A stretch of 15,326 nucleotides of DNA from Oscillospiraceae bacterium (lineage in GTDB: Bacteria; Bacillota_A; Clostridia; Oscillospirales; Ruminococcaceae), in contig CAAFWX010000320.1 in NCBI GenBank assembly GCA_900766795.1, positions 1 through 15,326 on the forward strand, written 5' to 3'. The position numbers and the translations under genes were made by a program. Positions 1 to 14,601 of this stretch are shown here, piece after piece. Every line of letters begins with the position of its first letter. Position 1 is the stretch's first letter. The notes beneath the pieces were generated by a model that was not told the origin of the DNA, searched no databases, and saw nothing but the letters and a program-made list of their open reading frames with translations.

Positions 1-21
1 AGACGTGTTCTCTTCCGATCT
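1..21 (+). other. Illumina TruSeq adapter remnant at contig end
   Basis: Bases 1-21 match the 3' end of the TruSeq read-2 adapter (ending CTCTTCCGATCT) with one mismatch at base 9 (T for G). It is followed by GCGCGG and a run of 12 T (30-41), which could be the 3' arm and U-tract of a terminator cut by the contig edge. The adapter bases should not be read as genomic sequence. Confidence 0.93.
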
Positions 22-928: not shown

Positions 929-1531
929 ATGTACATCACCTGTCTTGACCTTGAGGGCGTTCTTGTTCCCGAAATCTGGATTGCTTTCGCAGAAGCAAGC
1001 GGCATTCCCGAGCTGAAGAAAACCACCCGCGACGAGCCGGACTACAACAAGCTCATGAACTGGCGTCTTGGCATTCTCAAGGAGCACGGTCTGGGTCTTA
1101 AGGAGATTCAGGAAACCATCGCCAAAATCGACCCCATGCCCGGCGCAAAGGAGTTCCTCGACGAGCTTCGCTCCATCTGCCAGGTCATCATCATCAGCGA
1201 CACCTTCGCGCAGTTTGCTACTCCCCTTATGAAGAAGCTGGGCTGGCCTACCATCTTCTGCAACAGCCTTGAGGTTGCTGACAGCGGCGAAATCACGGGC
1301 TTCAAAATGCGCTGCGAGCAGAGCAAGCTCACTACCGTAAAGGCGCTTCAGTCCATCGGCTACGAAACCATCGCAAGCGGCGACAGCTACAACGACCTTG
1401 GCATGATTAAGGCAAGCAAGGCAGGCTTCCTTTTCAAGTCCACCGACAAGATTAAGGCAGACAACCCCGAGCTTCCCGCTTTTGAAACCTACGACGAACT
1501 GCTTGCTGCCATCAAGAATGCAATGAACTGA
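929..1531 (+). CDS. thrH: ThrH: phosphoserine phosphatase / homoserine phosphotransferase
   Basis: A 200-residue cytoplasmic HAD-superfamily enzyme. It begins CLDLEGVLVPEIWIAFAE, which matches characterised ThrH almost word for word. In this family the nucleophile Asp is followed by Glu (D-L-E-G), where most HAD phosphatases have a second Asp. Motif II is IIISDT (about residues 88-93), a conserved Lys lies in the TTVKAL segment, and motif IV is SGDSYNDLGM (about 150-159). Known ThrH removes phosphate from phosphoserine and can pass it to homoserine, which links serine and threonine synthesis. The start has GGAGG nine bases upstream. It is a single-gene unit between its own promoter and a terminator. 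Length agrees with the family (about 200-205 residues). Confidence 0.93.
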   Translation: MYITCLDLEGVLVPEIWIAFAEASGIPELKKTTRDEPDYNKLMNWRLGILKEHGLGLKEIQETIAKIDPMPGAKEFLDELRSICQVIIISDTFAQFATPLMKKLGWPTIFCNSLEVADSGEITGFKMRCEQSKLTTVKALQSIGYETIASGDSYNDLGMIKASKAGFLFKSTDKIKADNPELPAFETYDELLAAIKNAMN

Positions 1532-1538
1532 TTCTTAC

Positions 1539-1570
1539 ATCCCCGCGATTCCCGCGGGGATTTTGTTTTC
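1539..1570 (+). terminator. Intrinsic terminator of thrH
   Basis: Nine-pair stem ATCCCCGCG / CGCGGGGAT with a five-base loop (1539-1561), followed by TTTTGTTTT. It begins eight bases after the thrH stop. Confidence 0.93.
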
Positions 1571-1690
1571 AAAAAACAGAAATTACGGGCGAACCAAAGG
1601 GCGGGGCGAATAAAGAAGTTATGAAAGCATATATGTCTAATCATCAATAGTAATTTGCAAAACTGATTTCCGATTTTTTTCAGAAAGGTA

Positions 1691-1719
1691 TTGACAATTC
1701 ACCATGAAATGATTATAAT
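1691..1719 (+). promoter_or_regulatory. Consensus sigma-A promoter of the riboswitch/MATE operon
   Basis: -35 TTGACA (1691-1696), 17-base spacer, -10 TATAAT (1714-1719). The predicted start, near 1726, coincides with a perfect five-pair hairpin GTCCG-ATTT-CGGAC (1726-1739). This would place a stable stem at the very 5' end of the RNA. Confidence 0.88.
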
Positions 1720-1754
1720 AATACTGTCCGATTTCGGACGGCGAAAAAATTAAA

Positions 1755-1845
1755 GTCATCGGAGGACAAGCCATCGCAATGGCTGCGTCGAACAGAAGAT
1801 GTCGGGTGCGCCCGGTTATTGTAAAAGATAACCGGGCGCTTTTTT
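1755..1845 (+). promoter_or_regulatory. Candidate guanidine-IV (mepA) riboswitch with terminator
   Basis: Seen: after GGAGGAC lies hairpin AGCCAT-CGCA-ATGGCT (1769-1784). A second hairpin, CGGG-TGCG-CCCG (1803-1814), has a loop that is the exact complement of the first loop (CGCA with TGCG), so the two can kiss. The second hairpin shares bases with the 5' arm of a perfect 12-pair terminator (1808-1819 with 1828-1839, then six T), so the kissing form and the terminator exclude each other. CATC (1757-1760) and GATG (1798-1801) can close the domain. Known: guanidine-IV RNAs sit before mepA-type MATE transporters in Clostridia and use loop-loop pairing to prevent termination. A MATE body lies downstream here. 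Inference: transcription ON switch for guanidinium. I cannot run a covariance search, so the class is not certain. Confidence 0.62.
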
Positions 1846-1849
1846 GTTT
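1808..1849 (+). terminator. Terminator arm of the leader RNA
   Basis: Perfect 12-pair stem GCGCCCGGTTAT / ATAACCGGGCGC with an eight-base loop, then TTTTTTGTTTT. It lies before the first start codon of the operon, so it must be conditional for the downstream genes to be read. Confidence 0.9.
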
Positions 1850-1868
1850 TCAGAAAGGAAGAAGTATT

Positions 1869-2144
1869 ATGAAAATTATCACAATCAGCCGTGAATTCGG
1901 CAGCGGAGGACGGGAGCTTGGAAAGCGCCTTGCGGACGCACTCGGAGTTCCCTGCTATGACCACGAAATCATTGATATGGTAGCTGAAAAGTGCGGCTTG
2001 GACAAAAACTATGTCGCTCACGTTTCGGAAAAGGATATCCGTACATTCTACCCCTCAACTATCGGGCATAGGTTTCTTGTTTCGTTTCCTGCCGCAGAGT
2101 TTTCGTGGGCAACGGCGCAGGAAGTCAGGCGCTGGGCGCGGTAA
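1869..2144 (+). pseudogene. Truncated cytidylate-kinase-like gene fused to MATE DNA
   Basis: The frame begins MKIITISREFGSGGRELGKR, the hallmark N-terminus of the clostridial cytidylate-kinase-like family: a short strand and the P-loop-like GSGGRELGK, which would bind nucleotide. GVPCYDHEIIDMVAEKCGL and IRTFYPSTIGHRF also fit, up to about residue 69 (near 2075). Complete members are about 200 residues, but here the homology stops. The last 20 or so residues (from about FPAAEF) are the out-of-frame reading of MATE transporter DNA, ending at TAA 2142-2144. AAGGAAG lies about 10 bases before the ATG. The catalytic C-terminal part is missing, so the product should be inactive. Either a deletion joined two operon genes or the assembly is chimeric here. 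Confidence 0.78.
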
Positions 2145-3319
2145 ATATCGCCCTGCCCTTTGTACTGCTTGCGCAGGCGCTCAACGCTATGGCGATCATA
2201 GGCGGCGTTACGATTACTGCAATACGCTTCGGGCGCGGCGACAAGGAGGGCGCGCAGAACGCATTTATGCACTCGTTCACGCTTAATCTCATTGTGGGCA
2301 TTCTGATAACCCTGTCAGGTTCTGTGTTTACGGGAGCGGTGTGCGGGCTGCTGGGTGCTTCGGAAAGCTACTATTCGCTGGTTACGGAATATGTGTTCTG
2401 GTACGCGCTTTTTGCGATTCCGAACGCGCTTTCGCTAAATCTCCAGTCCTTCTGCCGCAACGACAATTCCCCCGGACTTGTCGCTGTAACCAACGTTGTC
2501 AGCACGGCGATAAACATATTCCTCGACTGGCTGTTTGTATTCCCGTTACAGATGGGCGTTATGGGCGCGGCAGTTGCAACAGGCATTTCGCAGACAGTGG
2601 GCTTGCTTGTGGTGCTTACACACTACATCTTCAAGAAAGGCAATCTTCGTATCAGCAGATTTAAGCCGCAGATGAAGCTGTTCGGCAAGATACTTTTCAG
2701 AGGACTTCCCGAAGCAATCGCGCAGTTTTCGACCCCTGTCACCACGCTATGTATGAACTATACCCTTATGGACGCCTACGGCGATATCGGTATCAACTCC
2801 TTTGCGATAATCTCGTACCTGTCCTCGTTTACAATGGCGGTGTTCTTTGGTGCGTCCGAGGGTATGCAGCCGCTGTTCGGGCAGGCTTACGGCGCAAAGG
2901 AGGACGACGACCTGAAACATTATCACCGCGCAGGACAGCTTATCAGCATTATAGGCAGTGCGCTCTGCGTGGCGGTTTATGTGATATTCCCGCACGCGCT
3001 TTGCCAACTGTTCGGTGCGGACGGCGAAACCGTTGATTTTACGGCAATACATATGTGGGAATACTGCTGGGGCTTTATCGTGGGCAGCATAAACACAATG
3101 ATGTCCGCGTATTTCTACTCAACAAAGCGCTCCGCTCAGGCAATAGTGCTGAATGCTGTGCGCAGTCTTGTTATGAACTCGCTGATAATCACATTTCTGC
3201 CGAAGATATTCGGCGGGGCAATCGTATGGCACACCTTTGGAATTTATGAGGTCATTGTGCTGATAATTGCAATCGTTCTGAAAAAAGTTTCCGAGAGAAA
3301 AGGAGTAGTGTATAAATGA
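2105..3319 (+). CDS. MATE family efflux transporter, 5'-truncated (MepA-like)
   Basis: 404 residues from the GTG at 2105. The frame is open only back to the TAG at 2069-2071. The protein begins in the middle of family homology, in VGNGAGSQALGAVNIALPF, which normally follows the first membrane helix. Roughly 40-50 N-terminal residues are therefore missing. The rest carries about eleven hydrophobic helices and the typical half-repeat landmark FFGASEGMQPLFGQAYGAK. MATE proteins export cations or drugs in exchange for Na+ or H+ across the inner membrane. No good ribosome binding site precedes the GTG. The stop overlaps the next start (ATGA, 3316-3319). The transporter is probably non-functional as assembled; if the junction is an artefact, the genomic gene may be intact. 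Confidence 0.82.
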   Translation: MGNGAGSQALGAVNIALPFVLLAQALNAMAIIGGVTITAIRFGRGDKEGAQNAFMHSFTLNLIVGILITLSGSVFTGAVCGLLGASESYYSLVTEYVFWYALFAIPNALSLNLQSFCRNDNSPGLVAVTNVVSTAINIFLDWLFVFPLQMGVMGAAVATGISQTVGLLVVLTHYIFKKGNLRISRFKPQMKLFGKILFRGLPEAIAQFSTPVTTLCMNYTLMDAYGDIGINSFAIISYLSSFTMAVFFGASEGMQPLFGQAYGAKEDDDLKHYHRAGQLISIIGSALCVAVYVIFPHALCQLFGADGETVDFTAIHMWEYCWGFIVGSINTMMSAYFYSTKRSAQAIVLNAVRSLVMNSLIITFLPKIFGGAIVWHTFGIYEVIVLIIAIVLKKVSERKGVVYK

Positions 3320-4671
3320 AACAGCAGACGAGCTTTACCGAGGGACGCATTTTTTCGCCGCTGATACGGTTTGCGCTGCCTGTGCTTTTTGCGCTGTTTT
3401 TGCAGACAATGTACGGCGCGGTTGACCTGCTTATTGTGGGGCAGTTTGGCGGCGAGCTTTCCGATGTTTATGTTTCGGCGGTGTCCATGGGAAGTCAGGT
3501 TATGCAGGCGATAACCGTTGTCATCACGGGGCTTGCTATGGGACTTACCGTTTTTGTAGGCAGGGAAATCGGCGCAGGTCAGCGCGAAAAAGCGGGAAAG
3601 ATAATCGGAAGCGGTATTTTCCTGTTCGCGCTAATCGCCGTGGGAGTTGCGGTGATAATGGTATGCACCTCCTCGTTTCTTGCAAGAATAATGCAGGCGC
3701 CGGAGGAGGCATTTGACGCAACCGTAACCTATATCGTGATATGCTCCGCAGGCGCGGTATTTATCGTTGCATATAATCTTGTCGGCAGCATTTTCAGAGG
3801 TATCGGCGACTCAAAAATGCCGCTTATTACCGTGGCAATCGCCTGTGTGCTGAACATCGGCGGCGACCTCTTAACGGTTGCGGTGTTCCACATGGGCGCG
3901 GCGGGAGCGGCGATTGCAACGGTGTTCGCGCAGGCGGTAAGCGTTGTTATCTCGCTGCTTATTATCCGCAAGCGCAGCCTGCCCTTTGTCCTCTCGTTTA
4001 AGGATATAAAGCCAAACGGCGCTTTCATAAAGGAAATGCTGAAGCTTGGTATTCCGATTGCGCTGCAAGACCTGTTGGTGAACATCTCATTCCTTGTAAT
4101 TATTGCGATTGTGAACTCCCTCGGGCTTACCGCCTCCGCGGGAATAGGCGTAGCGGAGAAGCTGTGCGGCTTTCTCATGCTTGTTCCGTCTGCATTTATG
4201 CAATCAATGTCCGCGTTTGTCGCGCAAAATATCGGCGCGAAAAAGCCGGAGCGCGCCAGAAAAGCGCTGCTCTGCGGAATTGCTTCTTCGCTTGTGGTGA
4301 GCGTTGTTATGGCGTATTTCACCTTTTTCCACGGCGAGCTGCTTGCGGGAATTTTCGCAAAGGACGGCGAGGTAATTCTGGCAGCAGCGGACTACCTGAA
4401 AGCGTATGCGCTGGACTGCCTGCTGACCTCGTTCCTGTTCTGCTTTATCGGGTATTTCAACGGCTGCGGCTGCACAAAGTTTGTTATGGTGCAGGGAATA
4501 ATAGGCGCATTCGGAGTAAGACTTCCCGTGTCGTGGCTGATGAGCAGGCAGGCGGAGGCTTCGCTGTTCCATATAGGGCTTGCCACTCCCGCTTCTTCCC
4601 TTGTGCAGATAATCCTGTGCGGTGTGTTCTTCTTTGTACTGCTGCAAAAACAGAAAAAAGCTGCGTGTTAA
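3316..4671 (+). CDS. MATE family efflux transporter (complete)
   Basis: 451 residues, normal for the family, with twelve predicted helices in two six-helix halves. The N-terminal half holds FALPVLFALFLQTMYGAVDLLIVGQFGG (written here as family landmark FALPVLF...VDLLIVGQFGG) and GSIFRGIGDSKMPL, and the C-terminal half holds the equivalent QSMSAFVAQNIGAKKPERA and FIGYFNGCGCTKFVM. Likely role: H+- or Na+-coupled export of organic cations or drugs; the substrate cannot be read from sequence. AGGAG lies ten bases before the ATG, and the start overlaps the upstream stop, so translation of the two MATE genes is probably coupled. It is not a recent copy of the first MATE gene: the two share the fold but differ throughout. 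Confidence 0.92.
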   Translation: MKQQTSFTEGRIFSPLIRFALPVLFALFLQTMYGAVDLLIVGQFGGELSDVYVSAVSMGSQVMQAITVVITGLAMGLTVFVGREIGAGQREKAGKIIGSGIFLFALIAVGVAVIMVCTSSFLARIMQAPEEAFDATVTYIVICSAGAVFIVAYNLVGSIFRGIGDSKMPLITVAIACVLNIGGDLLTVAVFHMGAAGAAIATVFAQAVSVVISLLIIRKRSLPFVLSFKDIKPNGAFIKEMLKLGIPIALQDLLVNISFLVIIAIVNSLGLTASAGIGVAEKLCGFLMLVPSAFMQSMSAFVAQNIGAKKPERARKALLCGIASSLVVSVVMAYFTFFHGELLAGIFAKDGEVILAAADYLKAYALDCLLTSFLFCFIGYFNGCGCTKFVMVQGIIGAFGVRLPVSWLMSRQAEASLFHIGLATPASSLVQIILCGVFFFVLLQKQKKAAC

Positions 4672-11266: not shown

Positions 11267-11746
11267 TTAAAGCTGCTTTACGCCTTTTGCCGCAGCCTTT
11301 ACCTCCATAACCCCCGTTTCGGGATAGAAGAATACCGTCCTGCCGTAGTTTAGCCCCGTGTCCTCCGCAACAATCGGAATGCCCTCCTTGCGAAGCGCCT
11401 CCTTGACTGCTTTCACATTGCGCTCGCCGATGTTGAACTTGTCGTTGGTTGTAGCGAACATAACCGCGCCGCCCGCAATCTTCGCCTTAAGCAGAGCGCG
11501 GTTTGCGCCGAGCGCCGTCACCTGCTTCACAAGCATGGGAATCGCTGTGTCCGCGAAGCGCATGGGCGTTGCCGCGCCTCCTGCGGCTGCCGTGCTGTCA
11601 GGGAGCATGATGTGCGACAGCCCGCCGATTCCCGTTGAGTTGTCAACAAGGCAGATTCCGACGCAGGAACCCAAAGCATATGTCACCAGAACATCAGGCT
11701 TCTTACATGCCTTTAAATCAGAAATCCCAATCGTCAAATTCGCCAT
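11267..11746 (-). CDS. cheD: Chemoreceptor glutamine deamidase CheD
   Basis: 159 residues, normal for CheD. Catalytic residues are present: Cys28 in YALGSCVGICL, His45 in GLSHIMLPDS and Thr22. The core IAGGAVMF and the IGERNV segment (GxRN) match the family. CheD deamidates glutamines of methyl-accepting receptors, and in B. subtilis it also binds CheC and raises its activity. The ATG at 11746 shares its A with the cheC TGA (TGATG), so coupling to cheC is likely; a GTG one codon earlier is the alternative. No strong ribosome binding site is seen. Last gene of the flagellar operon, before a bidirectional terminator. Confidence 0.94.
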   Translation of the reverse strand: MANLTIGISDLKACKKPDVLVTYALGSCVGICLVDNSTGIGGLSHIMLPDSTAAAGGAATPMRFADTAIPMLVKQVTALGANRALLKAKIAGGAVMFATTNDKFNIGERNVKAVKEALRKEGIPIVAEDTGLNYGRTVFFYPETGVMEVKAAAKGVKQL

Positions 11747-12363
11747 CACATTACACCAAGTTTCTTCATCAGCGTTTCCAAAGACGACATCTCCGGAATA
11801 AGGATAATGCTGGAATTGATTGTGTTGCCCTCGATGACAAAACCTACATCAATAAACAGCACCTTGTCCGCAACCTCGGAAAACTCCGTCATAGGAACGT
11901 TCATGATTGCGCCCAGCATATCCACGGTCATGGAGGGAGGCTCCATGTCAATCGTGAGGTCTGTAAGCTGCCCCAGCGCCTGCAAATAAGAGCCTGCCAT
12001 GATGTTTCCCATCTCCTGAAGCGCGCTAAGCTCCATCTCGTTCATGCTTACAAGCTCCACGCCGTCCTTGCAGAGAAACGTGTTAAGCACGATATCCGCG
12101 AAGCTTTGCTCCAGAAGAAACATAATCATGCCCTTGACATCGCCGATAAGGCGAATGAGTATGCCGGTGATGACATTCTCCGGTCCGCCCATGACGTCAA
12201 TCGCCTGCTCGTATTCCAAAACATGAACCTTAGGCACACGAATGTCCACGCCCCTGCCCAGCATATCCGACAATGCCGCAGCGGCGCTTCCCGAGCCGAT
12301 GTTTCCTATTTCCTTAAGACAGTCCAGAGCTATCGGCGACAGCTCGCTGTAATTGTGTATCAT
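11746..12363 (-). CDS. cheC: Chemotaxis protein CheC (CheY-P phosphatase)
   Basis: 205 residues from the ATG at 12363 (MIHNYSELSPIALDCLKEIG), which matches known CheC starts and has GGGAG upstream; a frame to 12396 lies inside the preceding gene. Both phosphatase centres are complete. The first is Asp14, Glu18, Asn21 and Pro44, and the second, in SALQEMGNIMAG, has the same D/S-x3-E-x2-N-x22-P spacing. CheC removes phosphate from CheY-P and pairs with CheD for adaptation. Thirteen bases after the FlgG-family gene and one-base overlap with cheD. Soluble, cytoplasmic. Confidence 0.94.
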   Translation of the reverse strand: MIHNYSELSPIALDCLKEIGNIGSGSAAAALSDMLGRGVDIRVPKVHVLEYEQAIDVMGGPENVITGILIRLIGDVKGMIMFLLEQSFADIVLNTFLCKDGVELVSMNEMELSALQEMGNIMAGSYLQALGQLTDLTIDMEPPSMTVDMLGAIMNVPMTEFSEVADKVLFIDVGFVIEGNTINSSIILIPEMSSLETLMKKLGVM

Positions 12364-12376
12364 ATCCTGACTCCCG

Positions 12377-13102
12377 TTATCTGAGGTTGTTTGCAATTCT
12401 GGTGAACTCGTCCGAGGTAGTAACCACGCGCGAGCTTATCTGATATGCGCGCTGGGTTTCGATAAGCTTCACCATCTGGGTAGCAAGGTCAACATTCGAC
12501 ACGATAAGTACGCCCTGAAGCTTCTCCATGTCCCTGTTGGGATTAGCCGCGCCGCTTCTGTCGGTGGCGGTGTAGCGGTTGGTGCCGAGCGCTTCAATGC
12601 CGTAGGGGTTCTCGAACTCAAAAACGCCCACCATCTTCGCAAGCTCGTCATAGTCGGCGACAGTTCCCTCCTCGTTAAAGGGAACTACAATCCTGTTGAG
12701 GTCATAGTCAAGGACATACTCGCCGCTGCCGCTGACGAGATACCACTCGCCCGTTTCAGCCTGCGTCATGCGAAACGCGCCGTCGCGGGTGTAGTTCACC
12801 TCGCCGTATCTGTCCTGCACGGCGAAAAAGCCCTTTCCCGCAATCGCAAAATCGGTCTGCATATCAGAGTAGTAGAAATGCGACTCGTCAAACATGAGGT
12901 CGGTCTTTTGCACATACGCGCCGTGACCCGTCTGCCACTCCGGCTCAGTCAGGCGCTCAACGGAATAGAGCGTGTCCGCGAAGGAGGGGCGCTGGGTCTG
13001 GTAGCCGTAGGTGTTGATGTTCGCAATGTTGTTGCCATAAACGTTCAGAGCCTGCGCCTGAGCAATCATGGCTGTTTTACCGGTATGGAATGCTATATTC
13101 AT
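12377..13102 (-). CDS. Flagellar hook-basal body rod protein (FlgG family, FlhP-like)
   Basis: 241 residues. The N-terminus has the flagellar rod signature ALNVYGNNIANINTYGYQ (about 18-35). The middle holds DMQTDFAIAGKGFFAV and FTRDGAF-type (here YTRDGAFRM) motifs of FlgF/FlgG proteins. The C-terminus ends with SNVDLATQMVKLIETQRAYQ (about 201-220) and TTSDEFTRIANNLR, which form the coiled core. Such proteins are exported by the flagellar system and build the rod. Which of FlgF, FlgG, FlhO or FlhP it is cannot be settled here; the paired arrangement resembles flhO-flhP of Bacillus. GGAGG lies nine bases before the ATG. Fifteen bases follow the previous gene. Confidence 0.9.
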   Translation of the reverse strand: MNIAFHTGKTAMIAQAQALNVYGNNIANINTYGYQTQRPSFADTLYSVERLTEPEWQTGHGAYVQKTDLMFDESHFYYSDMQTDFAIAGKGFFAVQDRYGEVNYTRDGAFRMTQAETGEWYLVSGSGEYVLDYDLNRIVVPFNEEGTVADYDELAKMVGVFEFENPYGIEALGTNRYTATDRSGAANPNRDMEKLQGVLIVSNVDLATQMVKLIETQRAYQISSRVVTTSDEFTRIANNLR

Positions 13103-13117
13103 GCGTTAATCCTCCTG

Positions 13118-13858
13118 TCAGCCGCCCAGCTTGCACAGCGTTGCGGTTTTCTGATTCATGCCGTCGCAGAGCTTCAGAATGGCGCTGCTTGCCTCATAGA
13201 GCCTGTTTGCGTTCATCATCATGGTCATTTCATAGTTGAGGTCGATGTTGGAGCGCTCGTATGCGCCCTGAATGATGTCGAACTTAACGTCCGCGGGAAC
13301 CTCCCCCGCTTCAACGGAGGTGAACATATTCGCGCCGAATTTGTCAACGTCACCCTCGGGGTTTATGTAGGACAGGCGCAGGCGGTCAACGTACTCGCCG
13401 TTCTGATAAATCCGCCCGTCAACGTCAATCACGAAATCGTCGTTGCCGAGGTAAATCTCGCCGTTTTCGCCGAGAATCCTGCCCGAAGCAGACAGGCAGA
13501 GATAGCCCTGACCGTCAAGCTCCCACTGACCGTTTCTCGTCAGCATTGTTTCCCCGTTGTAGCCCGCAATGTTGAAATAAACATCGCCGTGAATAGCCAC
13601 ATCAAACGGGCTTTCGGTGTACTCGAGAGAGCCTTGCTCAAGGTCGGTGTAGGATTGGTCAACATAGGCGTGGGAAAACGTTCCCGACAGCTCCTGACGG
13701 TGCTTCACGAGAATCATCTGCTCGTCAAAGCTGCCCATCAGAATGGTGTCGCGCTTATATCCCGCCGTGGACATGTTCGCGAGATTGTTACCGATGCAAT
13801 CCAGCTTGTGCTGATTCATTATCATGCCGTTGCAGGCGTAGTAATAACCTCTGTTCAT
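13118..13858 (-). CDS. Flagellar basal body rod protein (FlgF/FlgG family, FlhO-like)
   Basis: 246 residues. N-terminal motif KLDCIGNNLANMSTAGYKRD (about 18-37), mid-domain SPFDVAIHGDVYFNI and LTRNGQWELDGQGYLCLSASG, and C-terminal QGAYERSNIDLNYEMTMMMN followed by the usual closing helix. Same family as its downstream neighbour but clearly different, so these are two distinct rod subunits. Exported by the flagellar type III system. The start at 13858 overlaps the sigD stop (ATGA), with AGGAG upstream, so coupling is likely. The closing tail (KTATLCKLGG) is not the standard FlgG ending. Confidence 0.88.
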   Translation of the reverse strand: MNRGYYYACNGMIMNQHKLDCIGNNLANMSTAGYKRDTILMGSFDEQMILVKHRQELSGTFSHAYVDQSYTDLEQGSLEYTESPFDVAIHGDVYFNIAGYNGETMLTRNGQWELDGQGYLCLSASGRILGENGEIYLGNDDFVIDVDGRIYQNGEYVDRLRLSYINPEGDVDKFGANMFTSVEAGEVPADVKFDIIQGAYERSNIDLNYEMTMMMNANRLYEASSAILKLCDGMNQKTATLCKLGG

Positions 13859-14601
13859 TTGGCTTCTCCTTTCATATAAGGCTCTAGCTTGGCTTTAAGC
13901 GCAAGCACCGCCTTTGCGTTAATCTGACACACTCGCCCCTCGGTTATCCCGAGAGCTTTTGCGATGTCGGCGTATTTCATGTTCTTGTAGTAGTAAAGCG
14001 TAATGACCTGCCGCTCCTTCTCCTTTAGCGAGGAAATCGCCTCTGCGAGAATCTGCGTCATTTCATCTTTCAGCAGCCGCGAATCCGTTGGAGCGATTGT
14101 GCTCGGCTCGTCGAAGTTGTCCTCGTAAAGCAGCTCCTCAAACGAAAGCGTGACGGTGCAGGAAGCGTCCGCCATGTTTTTCAGCAGCTTGTCCTCGGGA
14201 ATCTCCATATACTCCGCAAGCTCTGCGTTTGTAGGCGCTCTCCCATATAAATTATACAACGCGCTGTTGGCTTTGTCAAGGTCGCGCGCAAACTTTCTGA
14301 CGTGGCGCGGAATCCAGTCCTGCTTTCGTATGAAGTCGATAATAGCCCCGCGTATTCTGAGCGACGCGTAGCTTTCAAACTTCGCGCCCTTGTCGGGGTC
14401 GAAGTTCTCGATTGCGTCCATCAGCGCCAGCACGCCCTCGTTTATTACGTCGTCAACGTCCCCGAATTTGGCGTACATGTTCCTCAGAGAGAGCGCTACC
14501 GTGCGGACAAGCCCCATGCTTTTCAGCACGATTTCATTGCGCAGGCGGATATCCCTGCTCTGCTGATACTGCTCAACCATTGAAGCAATTGAGTTATCCA
14601 A
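13855..14601 (-). CDS. sigD: RNA polymerase sigma factor for motility (SigD/FliA, sigma-28)
   Basis: 248 residues, typical for the family. Region 2 is DVDDVINEGVLALMDAIENF with FDPDKGAKFESYASLRIRG (about 48-85), then RKQDWIPRHVRKFARDL, which contacts the -10. Region 3 is GRAPTNAELAEYM. Region 4 is SLKEKERQVITLYYYKNMKY and then the helix-turn-helix ADIAKALGITEGRVCQI (about 211-227). It directs polymerase to late flagellar and chemotaxis promoters and is normally held by FlgM, which is not in this window. The start is TTG at 14601, with GGGGGAG about six bases upstream; an ATG seven codons later has no ribosome binding site. 33 bases after flhA, ATGA overlap with the next gene. Confidence 0.95.
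   Translation of the reverse strand: MDNSIASMVEQYQQSRDIRLRNEIVLKSMGLVRTVALSLRNMYAKFGDVDDVINEGVLALMDAIENFDPDKGAKFESYASLRIRGAIIDFIRKQDWIPRHVRKFARDLDKANSALYNLYGRAPTNAELAEYMEIPEDKLLKNMADASCTVTLSFEELLYEDNFDEPSTIAPTDSRLLKDEMTQILAEAISSLKEKERQVITLYYYKNMKYADIAKALGITEGRVCQINAKAVLALKAKLEPYMKGEAK

Follow-up and report, generated by a model that had tools for sequence, protein, structure and literature searches.

The guanidine-IV (mepA, GGAM-1) riboswitch is reported with kissing loops, a terminator and associated MATE or GNAT genes (PMC7736828, PMC11611296, PMC12186494, PMC9788692). As far as its text descriptions go, the second conserved loop lies within the terminator hairpin, nucleotides G62, G66, U67 and G72 are conserved, and sugE is the commonest associated gene (PMC7736828). 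In the Gd4v motif, a guanidine-IV variant, over half of the examples precede a PRK07324 transaminase gene and a pseudoknot joins two hairpins, according to the published text (PMC9788692). Here, we analyze a stretch of 15,326 nucleotides from an Oscillospiraceae bacterium (hereafter, the window, i.e. the whole stretch at its full length), in which the leader at 1755-1845, upstream of a cytidylate kinase-like gene and two MATE transporter genes, had been labelled in a preliminary description as a candidate guanidine-IV riboswitch. The sequence comparisons place this leader in a well-supported structured RNA family that looks separate from guanidine-IV. The family, which is without a match in Rfam 15, is probably a riboswitch, and we consider the leader most likely to be a riboswitch that turns on transcription of detoxification genes (probability roughly 0.7).

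The RNA family, its stems and its target genes

In a relative genome with a MATE protein 61% identical to that of the window (G180), GAAGATGTCGGGTGAGCCCGGTTAT stands directly 5' of an intact MATE gene. A pattern search was positive in 9 of 293 relative genomes, with 0 for the reversed-pattern control among the matches listed. Two covariance models were used, R1, built from eight pattern-search sequences with the window excluded, and R3, built from nine sequences with the window included. R1 scores the window core at 52.7 bits (E = 9.5e-11) and has matches in 18 of 391 class genomes; R3, to whose training set the window belongs, scores it at 78.0 bits and has matches in 41 of 335 order genomes and in 8 of 338 phylum genomes (E ≤ 0.01), three of the latter being chance-like by eye. 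The samples of relatives and of class, order and phylum genomes overlap, so that their counts are not additive, and they were sampled around one genome, that of locus L031, an Oscillospiraceae metagenome-assembled genome, from which we infer membership of Clostridia. The analyzed set comprises 71 matches (70 distinct) at 69 loci, the window included. The weak R3 phylum matches L105, L106 and L107 (E 0.006-0.01) were rejected as chance by eye and stand outside the 69 loci.

BLAST searches of plasmid records yielded a Subdoligranulum variabile member (75.7 bits with R3), a second, weaker one from the same species (19.8 bits) and a member on Selenomonas ruminantium pSRC2 (42.9 bits); no match was obtained in plasmid BLAST with L070 or the window as the query. 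By eye, the S. ruminantium copy is followed by a short stretch that appears to be left over from the start of a MATE gene (L155, 2100-2430). A weak member upstream of a MATE gene on Treponema saccharophilum pTS2 (L157), recognized from BLAST (E 0.06) and by eye, was missed by R3 at E ≤ 1. A short exact pattern picked out 51 stretches in genome contigs, among which the L031 and L040 matches fall inside genes by eye. The five matches of an IMG/VR pattern scan lack the upstream core by eye; further IMG/VR scans gave 0, 1 and 0 matches, the single one being coding by eye, and window 1500-3400 had no match in a phage collection. With Rfam 15, a tRNA is the sole match in the window at gathering thresholds, and the leader has none; around the leader at E ≤ 10 there were low-scoring matches alone, and in nine relatives at E ≤ 2 there were two, all far below gathering scores. 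No match to the family with a credible score was found among 4227 Rfam models, and no description of the motif was found in the searched open literature, a search that covers neither figures and supplements nor most subscription papers.

The alignments support each of the stems P1, P2, P3 and P5. In a MAFFT alignment of nine sequences (leaving out L091, L092 and L093, which MAFFT misaligned), 144 of 144 cells are paired. For a second alignment (A8), 20 members lacking P4 were chosen by hand and aligned to the structure of R3; it leaves out L110, L111 and L114 (also without P4), all members with P4 and the weaker members of the second terminator arrangement described below. In this alignment, 97.3% of 400 cells are paired and 12 of 20 pairs are altered on both sides, including two of the three pairs of P2, all five modelled pairs of P3 and two of the four pairs of P5; P1 occurs in relatives as CACC:GGUG and CGUC:GACG. 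Covariation was 0.530 compared to 0.221 in shuffled alignments, four of five measures were reached by 0 of 500 shuffles, and pairing fell to 26-36% when the partners were slid. The joining strands of the P1-P2-P3 core, GGAGG and GGA.AA, are conserved, and it is possible that GGAGG at 1761-1765 together with 1790-1797 forms a ligand pocket. In the window, region 1736-1850 folds better than 200 of 200 dinucleotide shuffles (z = -3.95); the motif begins 35 nt past the promoter match, and the RNA start is expected near 1726 (Table 1).

The conserved GGAGG also resembles a Shine-Dalgarno site, and an ATG at 1779 of the window opens a frame that runs into the kinase gene, as would fit a leader peptide that starts after GGAGG and senses ribosome stalling. 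However, a start codon lies 4-14 nt past GGAGG in 31 of 70 members and is ATG in 9 of 70, the peptides differ, and P1-P3 covary as RNA stems; we therefore rejected this explanation, which is scarcely credible.

Genes downstream of the family members were assigned by match to 12 reference proteins with a checked Pfam class, all 12 taken from members, so that those rows contain self-matches. Among the 71 match rows, 31 have MATE, 20 GNAT, 8 ABC, 3 cytidylate kinase followed by MATE, 2 MFS and 1 nitroreductase, and 6 are unclassified, two of which resemble by eye a MATE remnant (L088) and a GNAT start (L143). The matched gene starts at most 240 bases from the motif in 60 of 71 rows; in five ABC rows the match starts farther off, and a different first gene is possible. 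One conserved RNA ahead of several unrelated gene families is the usual signature of a riboswitch, and the covarying structure of this family stands upstream of several such families. In two regions, two copies of the motif precede ABC transporter genes (L111, 1501-1563 and 1676-1761; L110, 1501-1564 and, on the minus strand, 1031-1113), possibly as a tandem switch. Between the motif and the ABC gene or the second copy, short frames with WGRSPP were seen by eye in L071, L110 and L111, a possible leader peptide; a scan of frames below 90 residues listed L111 alone of these three loci, plus two unrelated matches, and no paper on GRSPP and a leader peptide was found in the searched literature.

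Table 1 Features of the leader and operon of the window.
Feature	Position	Strand	Basis
sigma-70 promoter match, TTGACA-17-TATAAT	1691..1719	+	12/12 consensus matches
Conserved core of the RNA family (P1, P2, P3, P5)	1755..1819	+	covariance models R1, R3
P1 5' strand CAUC, partner GAUG 1798-1801	1757..1760	+	100% of cells paired, 20 members
Conserved GGAGG, P1-P2 joining strand; G1765 opens P2	1761..1765	+	conservation
P2 5' strand GAC, partner GUC 1787-1789	1765..1767	+	100% of cells paired
P3 hairpin AGCCAU-CGCA-AUGGCU, kissing loop 1775-1778	1769..1784	+	98.0% of cells paired
P5 antiterminator hairpin CGGG-UGCG-CCCG, kissing loop 1807-1810	1803..1814	+	100% of cells paired
Intrinsic terminator, 13-bp perfect stem 1808-1820/1827-1839, loop 1821-1826, U-run TTTTTT 1840-1845	1808..1845	+	
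Cytidylate kinase-like gene, first ~71 of ~204 codons	1869..2084	+	PF13189 and homologue alignment
MATE transporter 1, ~36-45 N-terminal residues missing	2105..3319	+	PF01554
MATE transporter 2	3316..4671	+	PF01554

Terminator arrangements and the proposed switch

The preliminary description had the second hairpin compete with a perfect terminator stem, and this holds: the terminator draws on the 3' half of that hairpin, the one with the TGCG loop, and the two structures are therefore mutually exclusive. Across the family, a terminator of at least nine pairs with its 5' arm starting inside the motif is present in 63 of 70 members, compared to 11.4 on average after shuffling of the motif letters; the expression platform is incompatible with the folded core, as in terminator-type riboswitches. 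In the majority arrangement, to which the window belongs, the terminator uses GCYCGGUUAU or a close form, which is the 3' half of P5; GCYCGG occurs at that site in 50 of 70 members. In the second arrangement, the terminator pairs the core strand GCCGGAUAAG with CUUAUCCGGC, and P5 sits inside the terminator hairpin (L087, L112, L114, L121, L132, L141, L145, L148 and others). An automatic split assigned 48 members to the first arrangement and 18 to the second, with 4 in neither; L064, L081, L124 and L127 are among those misplaced as judged by eye.

Given that the folded core excludes termination in both arrangements, the natural reading is a transcriptional ON switch. A small, probably toxic compound would bind the joining strands, the kissing junction or both and would stabilize P1, the P3-P5 contact and P5; P5 would then hold the 5' arm of the terminator paired, and polymerase would read into the operon. 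Without the ligand, the 13-bp terminator would form and transcription would end near 1840-1845. In the second arrangement, the folded core itself would directly block termination. Extended to the family, the proposal is that Clostridia of gut and rumen, together with one Negativicutes member and perhaps one spirochaete, share a new riboswitch class that senses a toxic compound and, with one aptamer and two terminator arrangements, induces several separate detoxification routes, namely export by MATE, ABC and MFS transporters as well as N-acetylation and nitroreduction; we give this fuller version an even chance. If the RNA is a riboswitch, it would directly report on a compound to which gut bacteria respond as to a poison, would place several MATE types, a GNAT family and a cytidylate kinase-like protein under a single signal, and would possibly bear on the question of the Gd4v ligand; its ligand could be sought in a small transcription-termination screen, the RNA being roughly 100 nt.

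A loop-loop contact is part of this scheme. The loops CGCA (1775-1778) and TGCG (1807-1810) are exact reverse complements, just as had been reported. A 4-nt complement alone is weak, with a chance of about 1 in 256 by simple arithmetic, and the kissing loops rise above chance because they are conserved in relatives. The kissing helix is 88.8% paired in the 20-member alignment, and among the 53 of 70 members that were parsed into two 4-nt loops, CGCA goes with UGCG in 21, CGUA with UGCG in three and CGGA with UGCG in one, whereas three others do not fit. The relatives do not clearly lack the covariation expected of kissing loops, in that L090 combines CCCA with UGGG and so shows a true compensatory change. 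We also observed that CGUA/UGAG alternates with CGCA/UGCG, the two middle positions changing together without forming Watson-Crick pairs.

Several points weigh against a ligand-controlled switch of this kind. The parse into two 4-nt loops failed for 17 of the 70 members; among the parsed ones, 24 of 53 (including L060, L064 and L078) combine CGUA with UGAG, with one G.A mismatch, and a full compensatory change of the loops is limited to L090. When loop partners were shuffled 20,000 times, the observed numbers were reached in 447 cases for standard pairs, in 58 for Watson-Crick pairs and in 4089 for fully paired loops. Kissing is likely, but it is the weakest part of the structure and less firmly supported than the stems. 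As for the stems, the 20-member alignment, made of hand-picked members and fitted to the structure of R3, gives counts that lean towards that structure; further pair types were not raised in it (23 compared to 24.0, with 426 of 500 shuffles as high). A few weak members, e.g. L149, may be chance. Predicted energies for the window strongly favour the terminated fold (-40.8 vs. -19.6 kcal/mol, a difference of 21 kcal/mol), so that the decision would have to be kinetic, made during transcription. Both the ligand and the dependence on it are features that we infer. Furthermore, a trans-acting RNA-binding protein that, in place of a small molecule, binds the leader and blocks termination would leave much the same pattern, and scattered targets under one type of leader would fit the regulon of such an antiterminator too; however, by established knowledge, a loop-loop contact and joining strands that stay unpaired yet conserved are more typical of aptamers, and we consider control by a protein decidedly unlikely.

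Comparison with guanidine-IV, Gd4v and yjdF

The case for guanidine-IV rests on general architecture: terminator-type ON logic, a loop-loop contact and MATE and GNAT targets are shared with that class, in agreement with the text of the guanidine-IV reports. To this extent the preliminary description stands, namely as to a riboswitch-like leader with kissing loops, terminator competition and a MATE operon, whereas its assignment to the class does not. The second conserved loop of guanidine-IV is described within the terminator hairpin, but the terminator loops of the relatives of the window vary and the kissing partner is the loop of P5, in a separate antiterminator or apical hairpin; the most conserved nucleotides of the family fall outside the terminator loop. 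In the window, the loop GUAAAAG (1821-1827) fits the spacing of G66, U67 and G72, a chance partial fit: G62 has no counterpart there, the loop is not kept in relatives, and within the 3' region that was scanned, 5 of 70 members have the pattern G...GU....G. Conversely, no counterpart of the conserved core UCAUCGGAGG...GGAUAAGAUGUCG was found in the text descriptions of guanidine-IV, a comparison that does not extend to figures and supplements. The association with sugE/EmrE exporters described for guanidine-IV, where sugE is the main gene, is likewise absent: a search of up to 1300 bases downstream with three SugE proteins (E ≤ 1e-3) gave a SugE/SMR match in 0 of 71 stretches, whereas a positive control matched.

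The Rfam covariance search that had been proposed for the leader gave no significant match. This silence does not decide against guanidine-IV, because Rfam 15 also gives no riboswitch match for a sugE leader (L158) that by eye is guanidine-IV-like, with two hairpins, the second of which is the terminator, and loops able to kiss; Rfam 15 may be without a model of this class. Two other sugE leaders are guanidine-I. In the comparison with L158 itself, the core is absent from it by eye and R3 has no match to it at E ≤ 10, which counts against guanidine-IV. Taken with the points on loop placement and sugE, this makes it very unlikely that the leader is a guanidine-IV riboswitch.

Gd4v remains the most serious relative of the family, as compared by description rather than by sequence. 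The published text on Gd4v shares with our family gut enrichment and MATE and GNAT targets, as well as a hairpin on the terminator, which is found here in the second arrangement, where P5 lies inside the terminator hairpin. The leader could accordingly be the published motif or an unlisted branch of it that senses the ligand of Gd4v. What sets Gd4v apart is its main gene and its pseudoknot. A PRK07324 transaminase is not the main target here: 65 of 71 rows match non-transaminase classes, the gene starting at most 240 bases away in 60 of 71, although a transaminase reference was not part of the search and single cases among the other 11 rows are possible. The Gd4v pseudoknot is described as joining hairpins, whereas the conserved CAUC of our family stands 5' of the first hairpin. 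On balance, identity with Gd4v or a branch of it appears unlikely. The yjdF (azaaromatic) riboswitch, which reportedly binds a wide variety of compounds, differs in its gene, and the RNA family described here has no credible match in Rfam.

The operon of the window and other genes on the contig

The gene directly behind the leader had been called a broken cytidylate kinase-like gene, and it is indeed truncated: it matches PF13189 with E 4.6e-18 over profile positions 1-57 of 176, and its alignment to two intact homologues stops at residues 69 and 71. For the first MATE gene, matching starts at residue 37 or 46, depending on which of two references is used. The junction of the kinase and MATE genes at 2070-2110 involves a change of frame, and each gene lacks a part. 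In the two other kinase cases (L085 and L092), an intact kinase of about 204 residues is followed directly by a MATE gene, so that the switch, kinase and MATE form an operon in all three cases. On this evidence, the junction in the window is a deletion or an assembly join; had the intact order been the same, about 500 bases would be missing.

Of the MepA-like MATE gene proposed downstream, the MATE part is confirmed twice over, by two genes with PF01554, but 'MepA-like' is merely generic (59.0 and 74.5 bits with the NCBIfam MepA model, compared to a cut-off of 850). The type of the second MATE gene stands directly behind the RNA elsewhere, e.g. in L087, L114 and L141 (68-69% identity).

Outside the operon, window 1-21, agacgtgttctcttccgatct, is one base off what we take to be the end of an Illumina adapter, and because of this close agreement the contig start is probably adapter sequence. 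At 929-1531 lies a gene for a ThrH-type phosphoserine phosphatase/homoserine phosphotransferase (NCBIfam, E 5.3e-92), with a terminator-like site beside it at 1539-1561. On the minus strand, 11267-14601 contains a CheC-like gene by NCBIfam, below its cut-off, and, by eye from the list of open reading frames, CheD, two FlgF/FlgG-like genes and a sigma factor; given these motility genes, the host is probably motile.
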